Assembly (NCBI GenBank): GCA_902806095.1
Contig: CADCVF010000047.1
Location: 1-32,042, forward strand
Length of the DNA: 32,042 nt
Direction of reading: 5' to 3'
Origin: an uncultured Rubrobacteraceae bacterium
GTDB taxonomy: Bacteria > Actinomycetota > Rubrobacteria > Rubrobacterales > Rubrobacteraceae
Below the pieces are notes generated by a model. It had not been told where the DNA came from, did no database searches, and saw only the letters and a list, made by a program, of their open reading frames with translations. Position numbers and translations under genes: made by a program. Positions within the stretch are counted from its first letter, which is position 1. Each line of letters starts with the position of its first letter. Positions 10,425-21,926 of this stretch are shown here, piece by piece.

Positions 10425-11945
10425 CTAACCGCGGACGCGCTGGAGCTCGCGCAGGAACTCGGGGTTCGTGCGTGTCTCCTTGAGCTTCTGGATCAGGAGC
10501 TCTATCTTCTGCGCGCTGTCAAGGGCGTTGAGGATGCTGCGGACCTGCCAGACCCGCTGGGCCTCGGCCGGCTCCATGAGCAGCTCCTCCTTGCGCGTCG
10601 ATGAGTCCTCGATGTTGATGGCAGGGTAGATCCTGCGGTTCGCCAGCTTCCTATCGAGCCTGAGCTCCATGTTACCTGTGCCCTTGAACTCCTCGAAGAT
10701 GACCTCGTCCATCCTGCTGCCCGTCTCGACGAGCGCGGTAGCCAGGATAGTCAGAGAGCCGCCGTTCTCGATGTTGCGCGCCGCCCCGAAGAATTTCTTG
10801 GGCGGGTAGAGCGCCGCCGAATCGACACCACCGGAGAGGATCCTTCCCGAAGCGGGAGCGGCGAGGTTGTAGGCCCGCGAGAGCCTGGTTATGCCGTCGA
10901 GCAGGACGACGACGTCCTCTCCCTCCTCGACCAGGCGCTTGACGCGCTCGAGGACGAGTTCGGCGACGGCGATGTGGTTATCGGCGGGCTGGTCGAAGGT
11001 CGAGGCGACGACCTCGGCCTCCTCTACGCTGCGCTGCCAGTCTGTGACCTCCTCGGGGCGCTCATCGGCGAGCACCACGAACAGTTTGGTCTCGGGGTAA
11101 TTGGCCGCGATGGACTGGGCTATCTGCTTGAGGATCGTCGTCTTACCGGCCTTCGGTGGAGAGACGACCATGCCGCGCTGGCCTTTACCTATAGGTGCGA
11201 CAAGGTCTATGACGCGCGGGGCGATGTCGTTCGGCTTCCACTCCAGGCGCAGCCGCTCCATCGGATACAGCGGCGTCAGGTCGTCGAAGTTTGGGCGCCA
11301 GCGGCCCTTCTGGGGCTCCTGGCCGTTCACCGTCTCTATACGCACCATAGCAGGGTACTTCTCGCCCTCGCGGGCTGGACGGATCTGACCGACTATCTGG
11401 TCGCCACGCCTCAGGCTGAAGCGTTTGATCTGGCTGGTCGAGACGTAGACGTCGCCCTTGCTCTGGCTGTAGCCTCCGGTCCTCAGGAAGCCGAAACCGT
11501 CGGGCAAAACGTCGAGGATTCCGCTCTGCACGTTCTCCTCGCCGCCCTTGCCGTCCCTGTCGCCCCGCTGCTCCTGGCGGCGGTTCTGACGGCCGTTCTT
11601 GCGGTCTGTGCGGCTCCGGTCCTGACGCTGGTGTTCGACCTGTTCTGTGGTGGCGAGGTTCGAGTCAGCCTCGCCGAAGCCGTCGACGGGCGCGGCGACT
11701 GGCGTCTCCGTCGCGCCATTGGGCTCTTCCGTCGTTACTGGGACTTCCTGGGTTGCGGTCGTCGTGGCGTCTCCGTTGGTCGTGCTGTCGTTCTGCTGGC
11801 TCGCGGCCTGCTCGGTTGCGACCTTGTAGATCATCTCTGCCAGCTCCGGCTTGCGGTACTTACGGTACTGCTTTATACCTAGCTGCGAGGCGATCTGGTG
11901 CAGGTCGCTCAGGCGCTTGCGCTCCAGGGTAGATCTTTCGGTCAT
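10425..11945 (-). CDS. rho: Transcription termination factor Rho
   Basis: The 506-residue hexameric RNA helicase has a Rho N-terminal SAP-like fold (1-45), an inserted low-complexity linker rich in T, N, Q, R and G (about 46-138), a cold-shock RNA-binding domain (139-210, [10 protein letters not shown]) and the RecA-type motor. Walker A is PPKAGKT at about 263-269; [13 protein letters not shown] and [20 protein letters not shown] follow. Such polar N-terminal insertions are known from actinobacterial Rho proteins and add RNA affinity. Start ATG 11945 has a strong AGGAGAGGTGGAG upstream. The 106-bp gap to rpmE contains a GGGTGC/GCACCC stem with a large loop and no T-run. Confidence 0.97.
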
Positions 11946-12011: not shown

Positions 12012-13040
12012 TCAAAGTTGGAAGCCCCGCCGCCCTGCTTCGGGCTCTAGGGCATGGATGGTGTCCATGAATCTTACCACACGGGGCTCCGTCGACATGA
12101 CGACCGTATGCGTCCTTGCGCCGCCCCGGAAATACCTGACGCCGCTCAGCGTCTCGCCGGGAGTGATCCCCGTCGCTGCGAAGAGTACGTCGGTGCCCCG
12201 GATCAGGTCGTCCAGCGTAAGCTTCCGCTCGGAGTCTGTGAAGCCGTACTCTTCGAGCTTCTCGACTTGCGAGCGTTGTGTCGGCCACATTCTGGCCTGC
12301 ATCTCCCCTCCGAGGCACTTCATGACCGCGGCTGCGAGGATACCCTCGGGGGCCCCTCCTATACCGATGATCGCGTGCAGGTCGGCCCCATGCATCCCCA
12401 CGGCGATGGCCGGGGTGAGGTCGCCCTCCGGCCTTATCTGGATGCGCGCACCCGTCTTTCGGATCTCCTCTATGAGGCTCTCGTGCCTGTCGCGGTCGAG
12501 TACGGCTACGGTGATCTCCTGAGGCCTGCGGCCGAGCGCACCTGCAATGGCCTCTATATTCTCCGATACGGGGGCGTCTATGTCTATGTACCCCTTCGCT
12601 CCCGGGCCGACGATCAGCTTGCTCATGTACATATCCGGGGTCCTTAGCATGCTCCCCCTGGGGGCAGCCGCGACCGCCGAGATCGAACCCTCCTGCCCCT
12701 TTACGAGCAACTGCAAGCCCTCGATGGGCTCGACCGCGAGGTCGGCTTCCGGGCCTGTTTTCCCTAGCGAGTCGTCCACGCTGACTATCCCCGGATGGCT
12801 CTTTGGCGCCCTGACCCGACCTTTCTCGTCGAGGCGCTGCTCGCGCAGCACGGTTACCCTTCCGGAGACTGGGACTCTCTGCAACTCCTCGCGGAAAGCT
12901 TCCGTGGCCAGCGTGTAGGCGCGCTCCGAGTCTCCCGAACCTTCGAGACGCGCCACCTCGAGCGCGACCCGCTCGGTCACGGCGGCATATTCTACCGCGG
13001 CTGAAGCTATGGACCCCGAGTGGGAATCAGTAACGTTAAT
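12012..13040 (-). CDS. glpX: GlpX-like class II fructose-1,6-bisphosphatase, divergent
   Basis: The protein aligns along its length with GlpX: VTERVALEVARLEGSGD, then VEPIEG, DMYMSKLIVGPGAKG and GIGGAPEG. It would hydrolyse fructose-1,6-bisphosphate in gluconeogenesis. By my alignment with E. coli GlpX, metal ligands E57, E88 and E213 are kept, but D33 is replaced by Tyr and D85 by Glu, so activity is uncertain. The first conventional start, GTG 12980, would remove the beginning of the conserved first helix (SAAVEYAAVTER). In frame upstream there is ATT 13040, preceded by GGTGAG at 5 nt, giving 342 residues; I list that as the likely, unusual start. Rho follows after 66 bp. Confidence 0.75.
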   Translation of the reverse strand: MNVTDSHSGSIASAAVEYAAVTERVALEVARLEGSGDSERAYTLATEAFREELQRVPVSGRVTVLREQRLDEKGRVRAPKSHPGIVSVDDSLGKTGPEADLAVEPIEGLQLLVKGQEGSISAVAAAPRGSMLRTPDMYMSKLIVGPGAKGYIDIDAPVSENIEAIAGALGRRPQEITVAVLDRDRHESLIEEIRKTGARIQIRPEGDLTPAIAVGMHGADLHAIIGIGGAPEGILAAAVMKCLGGEMQARMWPTQRSQVEKLEEYGFTDSERKLTLDDLIRGTDVLFAATGITPGETLSGVRYFRGGARTHTVVMSTEPRVVRFMDTIHALEPEAGRRGFQL

Positions 13041-13163
13041 GGGCTCTCACCGAACCTCCTATGACCCACCAAGATAGACCGCACGCCACAAAGATCTCTC
13101 GAGGCTGGGTCTGCGTCGAAACGGTGCGGGTGGTTCCAGGGAACCAGCGTACCTGACACCTTG

Positions 13164-13197
13164 ATTATACACCAGCGCCGGTAAGTCGACTACCGGC
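13164..13197 (-). promoter_or_regulatory. Promoter of glpX with an overlapping inverted repeat
   Basis: The minus strand carries TATAAT (13169-13164). Upstream, GCCGGTA (13177-13183) and TACCGGC (13191-13197) form a perfect 7-bp inverted repeat with a 7-bp centre. It starts directly after the stop codon of the upstream gene and covers the region where a -35 box would lie, so it may be an operator, a short terminator stem, or both. The leader to glpX would be about 117 nt. Confidence 0.45.
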
Positions 13198-14514
13198 TCA
13201 CGGCGTCTTGTTTGCCACCGCCTCCTGTGCGAGCCCGAGAAGCGCCTGCTCGAGGTTCTCGCCCACAGGGTCGTTGTCGCAGTAGAGGACGGGTTTACCT
13301 TCCTCAGAACCCTGGCGCGTAACTACGTCAACCGCCGCCGCCTTTATCTCGGTGAGGTAAGCCTCGACCCCTGACATCCTTGCGAGGTCCACGGCAAGAC
13401 GCTTTCTGTCGGAGAGGTTCCCCGAGGAGGCCACGACTTCGCAACCGTAGTGTTCTTCGAGGTGCCTGGCGAGCGTATCAAGGACGGCGGGTGGCGCCGT
13501 GGAGACGTAGCCTATCCGCATTCCCTCGACCTTACCGACCGGACGAGGCCTGAAGACCGTCGGGATCACGACCAGATCACGACGTATCTTGTGGACCGAC
13601 CGTACGAGACCGCCGACCTTCTCGGGGCTTGCCAGCGGCTCCTCGCTCATGGTGAGGAGGAGCAGGTCCGAGAGTAGCAGGCGGTAGGTGCCCAGAAATC
13701 CGACAATGTACTCGGGGTCCTGGTTGGCCCCTGCGACGAGGACGCGCCTCTCGACCGTGACCGGGGGCATGGCCGCCCCCGAGCCGTCGAAGACCGTAAC
13801 GCGGGTGGCGAGGCCGTTGGCAATCTCGGCCCCCTCCAGGACGTTCGAGACGAACGGTTCCCCAGCGAGACCGCCGCCGCACCTGCGGCATCCGACGGTC
13901 GTCACCCTGCTCAGGGCCGCTGTCTCGTAGTAGTCGCTTGCGGCGTGCGCCCCGCGCCCGAGGGCCTCGAGCAGGTATTCGCTCCCGACCTCCATCCTGT
14001 GTCCCTCGATGACCTCAGGGTGCTCGGGTCCTCCGCGGCCCATCGAGACCACCCCAGGGTCGAAGCCCTCACGGGCGAGCAGACGCGCCAGGTAGCCCGA
14101 GATCGCCGTCTTCCCGACCCTCTTTCCCGTCCCGATCACGGCGAGCGAAGGCTTGGTCGAGACGGGGCGAAGTTCCGGCGGCTTCAGCTCGAAGTCGCTG
14201 CCGAGGTAGCGCGCCCCGGCGTAGAGGGCGAGCGAGGCTATCCTCATCCGCTCTCTATAGCCGATTACGGGCTCGTCTGAGAGGTCGACGACGACGTCGA
14301 CCTCGTACTCGGCGAGCGCCTTCCCTACCGCGGAGACTGGGTCCGTGTCCTCGACCAGCGGCACGCCGTAGTCGGTGCCGTCCTTGATCTTCTCCGTGCC
14401 GCCAAGGAAGGCCGCTGCTACGCCTTCGGCTTGCAGGGACTGCTGCACGCTTTGCATCGCGTCGATGACGACCGGAGGATAGTGCTCGCCGTCGATCAGG
14501 AACAGCGCACGCAC
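13198..14514 (-). CDS. cpgS: Cyclic 2,3-diphosphoglycerate synthetase
   Basis: The 438-residue protein matches the archaeal enzyme that closes 2,3-diphosphoglycerate into cyclic 2,3-diphosphoglycerate with ATP. That compound is a thermoprotectant and phosphate store in thermophilic methanogens. An N-terminal domain (1-115) precedes a P-loop domain with AVIGTGKRVGKTAISG (125-140). A CRRCGG pair and the GANQDPEYIVGF block are further landmarks. Length is close to the methanogen enzyme, about 460 residues as I recall it. Start GTG 14514 lies 6 bp after the metallophosphoesterase gene, so the two are surely cotranscribed. The call rests on remembered family features; a related but different nucleotide-dependent ligase cannot be excluded. 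Confidence 0.75.
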   Translation of the reverse strand: MRALFLIDGEHYPPVVIDAMQSVQQSLQAEGVAAAFLGGTEKIKDGTDYGVPLVEDTDPVSAVGKALAEYEVDVVVDLSDEPVIGYRERMRIASLALYAGARYLGSDFELKPPELRPVSTKPSLAVIGTGKRVGKTAISGYLARLLAREGFDPGVVSMGRGGPEHPEVIEGHRMEVGSEYLLEALGRGAHAASDYYETAALSRVTTVGCRRCGGGLAGEPFVSNVLEGAEIANGLATRVTVFDGSGAAMPPVTVERRVLVAGANQDPEYIVGFLGTYRLLLSDLLLLTMSEEPLASPEKVGGLVRSVHKIRRDLVVIPTVFRPRPVGKVEGMRIGYVSTAPPAVLDTLARHLEEHYGCEVVASSGNLSDRKRLAVDLARMSGVEAYLTEIKAAAVDVVTRQGSEEGKPVLYCDNDPVGENLEQALLGLAQEAVANKTP

Positions 14515-14520
14515 GCGACT

Positions 14521-15345
14521 TTAGCTCAGCGTTCGCCGCTGGCGGCGGTCTCCCGGCCTGCCGTCGCCCGTGACCTCTTCGTAATGCAGATACTGGTGGG
14601 TCGCTGAGTCGAAGTCCACTATCAGCTCGCGGTCTTTGAACGGGTACTTGCGGAAGACCTTCACCCGCCCGTCCTCGATCTCTATGATGTTGTAGCAGGG
14701 GCGCGTGTTACCCCTGAGGCGGGTAGTCGAGGCCGTACCTGCGTTGACGATAAACATGTTCTCGAGCTTCCAGGAGTAGGGCACATGCTTGTGCCCGGAG
14801 AGGACGAGGTCGACCTCCGTATCGGCGAGTAGCTCGAGCACGTCCCCAGCATCGTAGATGATGTTGCGCTCCCTTCCCGTTCCAGGGATGGGGATCAGGT
14901 GGTGGTGGATAACGAAGATCTTGAGCTTGTCTTCGGCCATGGCGAAGGTCTCGTGGATAAACTCGTAGTGCTCGCGACCAACCCGTCCGTCGTCGAGGTC
15001 GGGTTCGGATGAGTCCACGGCGACCATGACGGCTTCTTCGAAATCGAGGGTCGAGTACCGCTCCCCGAAGAGCCGCTCGAAGTGAATATAACCGACGTTG
15101 CGGGAATCGTGGTTGCCCGGTATCAGCATGACCCGCTCGCACTGGATGCGCTGGATGTACTCGGCCGCCTCCTCGAACTCCTGGCGGTAACCCGCGTTCG
15201 TCAGGTCACCCGACACAACGACAGCGGTAGGATCGAGGTCGTTTATCTCGAGGATCGAACGCTCCAGCAAGTCGGGTATGAAGTAAGGACTGCCGCAGTG
15301 GATATCGCTGATCTGACAGATAACCATCCTGCCGTGCGTGCCCAT
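14521..15345 (-). CDS. Calcineurin-like metallophosphoesterase
   Basis: A 274-residue cytosolic phosphoesterase with the full two-metal motif set: D14-I-H16 (SDIHCG), GD at 46-47 (VSGDLTNAG), GNHD at 77-80, HHH at 147-149, and GHKH at 184-187. This architecture resembles cyclic-nucleotide phosphodiesterase (CpdA-like) and related enzymes. The natural substrate is unknown; the operon partner makes a cyclic phosphoester, so action on that compound or its precursor is an attractive guess. Start ATG 15345 has GGGGAG 3-4 nt upstream. ATG 15327 is a possible alternative. It is the first gene of the two-gene operon. Confidence 0.85.
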   Translation of the reverse strand: MGTHGRMVICQISDIHCGSPYFIPDLLERSILEINDLDPTAVVVSGDLTNAGYRQEFEEAAEYIQRIQCERVMLIPGNHDSRNVGYIHFERLFGERYSTLDFEEAVMVAVDSSEPDLDDGRVGREHYEFIHETFAMAEDKLKIFVIHHHLIPIPGTGRERNIIYDAGDVLELLADTEVDLVLSGHKHVPYSWKLENMFIVNAGTASTTRLRGNTRPCYNIIEIEDGRVKVFRKYPFKDRELIVDFDSATHQYLHYEEVTGDGRPGDRRQRRTLS

Positions 15346-15480: not shown

Positions 15481-17118
15481 TTACATCTTCTCTGGCGCGT
15501 TCACCCCGAGCAGGTCGAGGCCGCTTGCGAGCACGACCTTAGTGGCGGCGCAAAGTGCGAGGCGGCGGGCGCGAACGTCTGCATCTTCGACCAGGATGCG
15601 ATGAACGGTATAGAACTGGTGGAAGCGTGTGGCGAGGGTTTCGAGGTAGGTCGGGATCGGATGTACCTCGCGCTTTTGGGCTGCGTTCTGTATGACGCGG
15701 GGGAAGTCGAGCAGCTCCAGCACAAGCAGACGCTCCTCTGGCGCGAGATCTCCAGCCGGGATCTCACCTAGTTCCTCCGGGCTAGTTTCGGCCCGCCCGA
15801 AGATGCTGGATATGCGGGCGTGGGCGTACTGCACGTAGAAGACGGGGTTCTCGTCTGAGTGCTTTATGGCGAGATCCAGGTCGAAGTTCATCTCGGTTTT
15901 GTGGGAGGAGCGCACGTAGAAGTAGCGGGCTACGTCCTCCCCCACCTCGTCGAGCAGTTCGTCGAGCGTTACGATGTTGCCTGCCCGCTTACTGAACTTC
16001 ACCTGCTCGCCTTCCTGCACGAGCTTCACTAGTCTTACCAGTTCCACGTCGAGGAACTCATGAGGCAATCCGAGTGCGACGAGGCCCGCCCTGATACGCG
16101 GCGGGTAGCCGGCGTGATCCGCGCCAAGCACGTCGGTCGCAGTCCGGAAACCGCGGTCCCACTTGTCGCGGTGGTAGGCGAGATCGGGTCCCATGTACGT
16201 GTATGACCCGTCGCTCTTGACCAGCACCCTGTCCTTGTCGTCCCCGAATCTCGAGGTCGCCAGCCACAGGGCGCCTTCACTCTCGTATACGTTATCCCCC
16301 TCCGCAAGCTCCCGGACGACCACATCTACTGCGCCGGACTCGTAGAGGCCCTTTTCGTTAAAGAAGCTATCGAAACGAACCCTTATGCGTGCCAGGGTGC
16401 GCTTGATATCGCCCATGCACCAGCTGGTCGCAAAAGCGGTGATCTCATGCAAGGCTACTTCGGGGTCCATCTCCAACAAGCGGCTGTCATGCTCCCTGGC
16501 GATGTCCTCCGCTATCTCAACGGTGTAATCTCCCTTGTAAGCCGTTTCCGACCCGGAGACGGGCCACGTCTCCCCGTAGAGCCCGCCGTAACGCACGGCG
16601 ACAGACTCGCCGAAGAGTCGGATCTGATTCCCTCCGTCATTGAAGTAGTACTCTCGTTGGACGTTCCTACCGGCGGCACCCATGATCCTGGCCAGAGAGT
16701 CTCCGTAGGCTGCCTGACGTCCGTGCCCGACATGCATTGGCCCGGTCGGGTTGACACTCACGAACTCAAGCAAGACAGGGTCTCCGGAAGGCTCGCGCCG
16801 CCCGTACCCCTCACCCTCGCCGAGCAAATAGCCAAGCTCTTCCCAAAGCGCCTCGGGAGAGAGCCTGAAGTTGACGAAGCCGGGTCCTGCGACCTCGGCC
16901 TCCCTCACAAACGGGGCGTCCAGTGCGCCCACGAGGTTCTCAGCGACCTCTCTCGGGTTCCGCCGCAATACCTTTGCATTGGCCAGGGCTACGTTGGTCG
17001 CGAAGTCGCCGTGAGTGGGGTCGTTGGGCCGCTCGACGTGGATGCCGTCAAGCTCGACCCCGTAACTCCTCTGAACGGCCTTCCGAACAGCGCCCGCAAG
17101 CCTCTCCTCGAAACTCAT
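15481..17118 (-). CDS. argS: Arginyl-tRNA synthetase
   Basis: A class I aminoacyl-tRNA synthetase of 545 residues charging tRNA-Arg. An Add-1 tRNA-binding domain (1-90, with FVNFRLS) comes first. The HIGH signature is HVGHGR at 129-134 and the KMSKS-equivalent reads KFSKRAGN, a known ArgRS variant. The C-terminal DALR anticodon-binding domain begins near residue 425 (VFYVQYAHARISSIF). Start ATG 17118 overlaps the TGA of the small DUF3006 gene (ATGA), so the two are coupled. Confidence 0.97.
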   Translation of the reverse strand: MSFEERLAGAVRKAVQRSYGVELDGIHVERPNDPTHGDFATNVALANAKVLRRNPREVAENLVGALDAPFVREAEVAGPGFVNFRLSPEALWEELGYLLGEGEGYGRREPSGDPVLLEFVSVNPTGPMHVGHGRQAAYGDSLARIMGAAGRNVQREYYFNDGGNQIRLFGESVAVRYGGLYGETWPVSGSETAYKGDYTVEIAEDIAREHDSRLLEMDPEVALHEITAFATSWCMGDIKRTLARIRVRFDSFFNEKGLYESGAVDVVVRELAEGDNVYESEGALWLATSRFGDDKDRVLVKSDGSYTYMGPDLAYHRDKWDRGFRTATDVLGADHAGYPPRIRAGLVALGLPHEFLDVELVRLVKLVQEGEQVKFSKRAGNIVTLDELLDEVGEDVARYFYVRSSHKTEMNFDLDLAIKHSDENPVFYVQYAHARISSIFGRAETSPEELGEIPAGDLAPEERLLVLELLDFPRVIQNAAQKREVHPIPTYLETLATRFHQFYTVHRILVEDADVRARRLALCAATKVVLASGLDLLGVNAPEKM

Positions 17119-20941: not shown

Positions 20942-21053
20942 AAGCAAACCGCGGGGTCAGGAGCTTGTTACTGGGCTGCATGATCTGGGCGCCGATGTTG
21001 TCGGTGGGAAGGCGAACACATCGGCTTCTTCACCAGCGTTGTATACCGGGGCC

Positions 21054-21926
21054 GTGATACGTCTCGGCTATCCGACCCAGAACCTAACGATCCCGGCCAG
21101 CACGAACCGCACGCTGCGGCTCGCGAGCCTGGCAGATGTGGCGAGAGTCAGGGAGCTCGTCAGGGACAACGTCGCCGATCTGAAGATTATCTTGCGGTGG
21201 AACGCGGAGCATGGGGTCGGGCTCTTCAGGATGGGACAGAACCTGATCCCCTTCGCCTCCCACCCGGCCTTTGCTTACGATTGGGAGGCGGAGCACGGTG
21301 AGGATCTGCGCGAGGCCGGAGAACTGGCCCGAAATCTTGGCATCCGACTCTCGATGCATCCTGGCCAGTACATCAACCCTGGAAGCCTGAATCCCGAGGT
21401 GGTCGAGCGTAGTTTGACGGAGTTGCGTTACGTCGCCAGGGTGTTCGACTTCCTTGGCAACCCTGACGGGGTGGCCGTGTTGCATATGGGCGGGGCCTAT
21501 GAGGACAGACAAGCGAGCGCAGCGCGCTTTATCGAAGTGATGCGCTCTGAGGCGGGGACCCTCCGCTACCTCGCCCTAGAGAACGACGAGCGCGTGTGGA
21601 CCGTGGCTGAGGTTGTCCGGACGGCCGTCGCCCTTGGCATCCCGGCGATCACGGACGCCTTTCACCACGATCTCAATCCCGGCAGTCTGACGCTGAATGA
21701 GGCGTTGGACCTCTCACTGCCTACGTGGGAACATCGGGGTGTGCGTCCCAAGCTACACCTCTCCAGCCAGGACCCCACCAAGCAGGCCGGTGCGCACGCA
21801 TACTCCGTGGAAGGTAGGGACTGGCAAGCGCTGCTCGGAGCCCTTGGCAGCAGGGAGGCTGACGTGATGGTCGAGGCAAAGGGCAAAGAGTACGCCCTTG
21901 CCCCGATGGGTGTTGAGATCGGGTAA
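21054..21926 (+). CDS. uvsE: UV damage endonuclease (UvsE/UVDE)
   Basis: A TIM-barrel, metal-dependent nuclease that nicks 5' of UV photoproducts and other lesions, an excision route alternative to UvrABC. Diagnostic blocks are IRLGYPTQN at the N-terminus, [57 protein letters not shown] and the metal-binding EAKGKE near the end. I start at GTG 21054 (VIRLGY, 290 residues); TTG 21039 would add five residues. The gene suits an organism exposed to radiation or desiccation. The same frame stays open for some 30 codons upstream without a start codon. Confidence 0.92.

Follow-up and report, generated by a model that had tools for sequence, protein, structure and literature searches.

A stretch of 32,042 nucleotides from an uncultured Rubrobacteraceae bacterium (contig CADCVF010000047.1, hereafter the window) carries a homologue of cyclic 2,3-diphosphoglycerate synthetase (cDPGS) immediately behind a calcineurin-like metallophosphoesterase, and a bacterial pathway for cyclic 2,3-diphosphoglycerate (cDPG) with a dedicated hydrolase is probably the best explanation of this arrangement. 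The phosphoesterase (14521–15345, minus strand; 274 aa, ATG start) is the module's first gene, and the synthetase gene (13198–14514, minus strand; 438 aa, GTG start) follows it after 6 bp (14515–14520), a spacing that the first-pass annotation had reported correctly. Homology, intact active sites, both biosynthetic enzymes, a conserved operon and gene co-occurrence can be read from the sequence data, and it is highly probable, judging from gene content, that the genome encodes the complete route of cDPG synthesis.

In the proposed pathway, 2-phosphoglycerate kinase (2PGK), encoded elsewhere in the genome and assigned by curated family membership, would convert 2-phosphoglycerate and ATP to 2,3-diphosphoglycerate (2,3-DPG). 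The synthetase, a P-loop ATPase, would use 2,3-DPG, ATP and Mg for the ring closure to cDPG, as its conserved residues suggest, with E41 and K42 of the other dimer subunit completing the active site according to the published mechanism (PMC10690619). The product is a cyclic pyrophosphate, its ring being closed by a phosphoanhydride (PMC10690619, PMC1224877) and not by a phosphoester, as it had been worded at first. Operon conservation suggests that the phosphoesterase would most likely return cDPG to the phosphoglycerate pool, towards 3-phosphoglycerate, either through cleavage of the phosphoanhydride or through removal of phosphate from 2,3-DPG, and the module would both make and break an anionic solute or store rich in phosphorus and carbon. 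Enzyme activity on these substrates, cDPG accumulation and the substrate of the phosphoesterase are what we infer.

Since Pfam and NCBIfam hold no curated cDPGS family model, the window synthetase, which matched no model of either collection at its cut-off, was identified through homology to PDB entries. Its residues 3–417 align with residues 7–432 of the M. fervidus cDPGS chain (8ork/8oru; E = 1.5e-122), with about 47% identity in the multiple alignment, and the homology spans both domains, including the N-terminal domain for which there is no other structural relative, in agreement with the archaeal-type synthetase initially proposed. PDB 9sxb (E = 9e-107; 44% identical), the third cDPGS of solved structure among the matches, likewise aligns over almost the entire protein and indicates that a further member of the family is under study. 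The catalytic and substrate residues to be scored were taken from the structure paper (PMC10690619), and the window protein retains the P-loop and Mg ligands K135, T136 and D194 (K149, T150 and D208 in M. fervidus), the 2,3-DPG contacts K131 and R132 together with E41 from the other subunit (K145, R146 and E45), the ATP-side residues E291, T339, E389 and K391 (E305, T353, E404 and K406), and K42 (K46). Across 52 synthetase sequences all of these positions are invariant except E305 (M. fervidus numbering), which is kept in 45; P335 of the same paper maps to a conserved F in the numbering used here, and this site was left unscored. With its full-length homology, the P-loop GTGKRxGKT, the catalytic and substrate contacts and a 2PGK in the genome, the window gene resembles M. 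fervidus cDPGS (8ork, 8oru), from which it differs in its Rubrobacteraceae host, in its position behind a phosphoesterase gene and in being known from sequence alone. By these comparisons the window protein is a true cDPGS homologue and not a chance match, and it very probably carries out the cDPGS reaction. In one Rubrobacteraceae relative (G030:C1:1879076-1880398) the cDPGS is split into three matches with TGA, which points to a decaying gene or to sequencing errors.

The search of the genome for 2PGK, put forward as a check by the first-pass annotation, yielded a gene at G000:C42:79921-80826 (plus strand), which scores 373.7 bits against the curated cut-off of 343 of the archaeal 2-phosphoglycerate kinase model (NCBIfam NF003259, PRK04220); because this cut-off is exceeded, the genome covers the two known steps of the biosynthesis. 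While resembling archaeal 2PGK in this respect, the Rubrobacteraceae kinase differs from the kinase of the actinobacterial operon in belonging to another lineage and in being unlinked to cDPGS. The joint occurrence of the two genes was examined in 197 Actinomycetota genomes, each at least 90% complete and drawn evenly over groups, so that the 111 genomes with cDPGS, and likewise the 111 with 2PGK, do not give the share of all species. Both genes are present in 110 genomes and neither in 85, which means that they occur together in 110 of the 112 genomes having either (Fisher 4e-54, uncorrected for kinship); the single-gene exceptions are one genome with cDPGS only, cut by a contig edge (G201), and one with a 2PGK-like gene only (G084). 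Outside Rubrobacteraceae 91 genomes have both, and by their coordinates cDPGS and 2PGK are neighbours in 88 of them; the exceptions are G193 and, each with its cDPGS at a contig edge, G038 and G128. A check through named loci covered 19 genomes with cDPGS, two of them Rubrobacteraceae and 17 from archaea or other phyla; 15 gave a 2PGK match, in a few cases weak, and none was detected in four Bacillota MAGs (L085, L087, L091 and L095), where another source of 2,3-DPG, another substrate or incomplete bins are possible reasons. A second and divergent copy of 2PGK lies at C9:21296 in R. taiwanensis (G018).

The scan of named genomes returned 405 cDPGS relatives, and the best 80 of these, which were retained, come from Actinomycetota, methanogens, Thorarchaeota, Altiarchaeota, Omnitrophota, Coatesbacteria, Calditrichota and Bacillota. 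Within these best 80 of 405, the phosphoesterase lies directly upstream of cDPGS in 43 of 48 non-Rubrobacteraceae Actinomycetota-type loci (median gap 9 bp) and is absent beside it in five, 2PGK lies directly downstream in all 44 such loci with room for it (median gap 11 bp), and a rho gene of the same orientation lies downstream in 42 of the 48, in all five named Rubrobacteraceae loci and in none of the remaining 27. Phosphoesterase, cDPGS and 2PGK form an operon upstream of rho in other Actinomycetota. In Rubrobacteraceae the phosphoesterase is upstream of cDPGS in 34 of 34 loci and 2PGK is downstream in 0 of 34. The link between phosphoesterase and synthetase, on which the initial suggestion of a make-and-break module was based, is not accidental, since it is kept in these 43 of 48 and 34 of 34 loci. 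No phosphoesterase was found beside cDPGS in the 25 loci from archaea and other phyla within the best 80 of 405, and some cDPGS genomes are devoid of it, which counts against the proposed role in cDPG breakdown; the eight sampled Actinomycetota lacking cDPGS and 2PGK in which it was sought (G043, G044, G046, G047, G048, G050, G057 and G058) gave no match either.

In the window, the slot held by 2PGK in other Actinomycetota, between cDPGS and the genes leading to rho, corresponds to a gap of 217 bp (12981–13197), in which a search for a kinase remnant found just short stop-broken frames, none of kinase size. The next gene downstream of cDPGS encodes a GlpX-like class II fructose-1,6-bisphosphatase (12012–12980, minus strand; 245 bits, slightly below the model cut-off of 259), in a position kept in most Rubrobacteraceae, and is followed by the gene for transcription terminator Rho (10425–11945, minus strand), the marker of the common chromosomal slot, a DUF1385 gene and prfA. 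The GlpX-like neighbour is regarded as context, possibly tied to the cDPG module via gluconeogenesis. The upstream neighbour in Rubrobacteraceae, argS for arginyl-tRNA synthetase (15481–17118, minus strand), is housekeeping context outside the module.

The phosphoesterase matches PF00149 with 67.7 bits (cut-off 21.5), and it has the full set of metal-site motifs (DxH, GD, GNHD, H and GHxH), with D14, H16, D47, N78, H79, H147, H185 and H187 invariant among 21 operon relatives, which bears out the complete active site recognized at the outset. The proposed CpdA-like character holds for the calcineurin-like fold and the two-metal motifs and fails for identity as a CpdA 3',5'-cAMP phosphodiesterase, the score with that model (NF008359) being 34.8 bits against a cut-off of 225. 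In the predicted structure (mean pLDDT 85) the nearest solved folds are GpdQ and Rv0805, whose families comprise enzymes that cleave phosphodiesters and phosphomonoesters and are not strict about their substrates. The operon phosphoesterase shares the fold and the complete motif set with these class III phosphodiesterases and with CpdA, and it differs from them all in its own signature HHHLxPxPGTGRER and in invariant basic residues, and from GpdQ and Rv0805 in being 17–20% identical in structural alignments. The operon-linked copies stand nearly apart from free paralogues in the phosphoesterase tree (2 changes versus 8.7 expected from shuffling). Most signature residues, when residues unique to the operon phosphoesterases were sought, also occurred in the free, unlinked paralogues and, therefore, are no proof of cDPG specificity. 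In the window's genome one such paralogue, about 49% identical (G000:C54:76790-77503; L141:6683-7504), directly follows the argininosuccinate lyase gene, and no common neighbourhood was found for it in more distant relatives.

It is gene context that assigns the phosphoesterase to cDPG metabolism, the sequence being silent on the bond cut. An action on either cDPG or 2,3-DPG is likely, and an action on cDPG itself is conceivable, at somewhat below even chances. Membranes of Methanothermobacter have a cDPG hydrolase activity, described as an activity with its gene unnamed in a review (PMC1224877), and the phosphoesterase would perform the same breaking step.

The history of the genes bears on the gene tree that had been suggested as a check for transfer from Archaea. 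If Rubrobacter had recently acquired the genes from a methanogen, this would agree with the high similarity to the archaeal enzymes and, for the unlinked kinase (L051:1495-2478), with Methanopyri as the nearest sequences by identity (42%). Nevertheless, in the synthetase tree Rubrobacteraceae nest within Actinomycetota and group with Thermoleophilia/Gaiellales-type sequences (support 96/93), a clade of Rubrobacteraceae and archaea is rejected (p-AU 0.006), and the slot upstream of rho is common with other Actinomycetota; tree, AU test and rho synteny rule out such a transfer for the synthetase, and as a general explanation it is very improbable; for the unlinked kinase it may still hold. These trees show neither their root nor which way genes may have passed between the domains in ancient times. 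In the kinase tree, the kinases of the operon fall into a single clade; the grouping of the Rubrobacteraceae kinase with Thermoleophilia-type kinases, expected from the synthetase tree, is rejected (p-AU 0.003). Rubrobacteraceae keep the chromosomal slot of the operon and have lost the linked 2PGK, the simplest reading being that the linked kinase disappeared from between cDPGS and glpX and that the other kinase took over. The cDPGS–2PGK pair has outlasted this replacement, which is evidence of functional dependence.

Other explanations concern the reactions and the role of the enzymes. The phosphoesterase might dephosphorylate 2,3-DPG or phosphoglycerates and so limit or reverse the pathway, with synthesis as proposed and cDPG left unopened, in agreement with the loose substrate demands in the families of its nearest solved folds, with 2,3-DPG as the intermediate common to both partner enzymes, and with the reported reversibility of M. 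fervidus cDPGS (PMC1224877), owing to which the pathway could in principle do without a cDPG hydrolase of its own; this alternative is rather unlikely, although it carries more weight than those that follow. The bacterial synthetase could also use another vicinal bisphosphate and form a different cyclic pyrophosphate, given the identity of about 47% to the assayed enzyme and a literature search that gave no assayed bacterial member. The invariance of the tested 2,3-DPG contacts and the near-perfect co-occurrence with 2PGK, the maker of 2,3-DPG, render this improbable. Finally, the 2PGK–cDPGS pair could supply 2,3-DPG as a cofactor of phosphoglycerate mutase, cDPG being a minor side pool, since the 2,3-DPG-dependent mutase (dPGM) needs this compound and most Actinobacteria use dPGM (PMC2964296). 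The window's genome, however, has the archaeal-type cofactor-independent phosphoglycerate mutase and no dPGM above the cut-off, as has been reported for R. xylanophilus (PMC2964296), and a need for a mutase cofactor therefore does not account for 2,3-DPG, which makes this explanation disfavoured and highly improbable.

With cDPG synthesis and breakdown retained as the preferred reading, the compound, which a 2023 paper confines to hyperthermophilic methanogens (PMC10690619), probably occurs in bacteria as well, because both biosynthetic genes recur across many deep-branching Actinomycetota, usually beside the phosphoesterase. A tentative extension, for which the chances are less than even, is that the phosphoesterase is the cDPG hydrolase and that cDPG is a widespread bacterial metabolite of an ancient phosphoesterase–cDPGS–2PGK operon in Rubrobacteria, Thermoleophilia, Coriobacteriia, Aquicultor and kin, non-thermophiles included. 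A literature search for bacterial cDPG or a bacterial cDPGS found no report, and published solute lists of Rubrobacter do not mention cDPG; if made, it may constitute a minor or conditional pool. The new element is the complete, co-inherited pathway and its operon, not the gene name, as automated databases may already label bacterial cDPGS.

The linkage and co-inheritance of both biosynthetic genes over much of the sampled Actinomycetota predict cDPG in cultivable bacteria, and the phosphoesterase is a concrete candidate gene for its breakdown. cDPG is sought as an industrial protectant, and the actinobacterial genes represent new enzymes from sources other than hyperthermophiles. Many of the carriers are, from their taxonomy and sources, probably not hyperthermophiles, so that it becomes testable, as an old question, whether cDPG protects against heat or stores phosphate, carbon or energy. 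Elsewhere in the window, a UvdE-type UV damage endonuclease is encoded at 21039–21926 (plus strand), which would suit a lifestyle exposed to radiation or desiccation.
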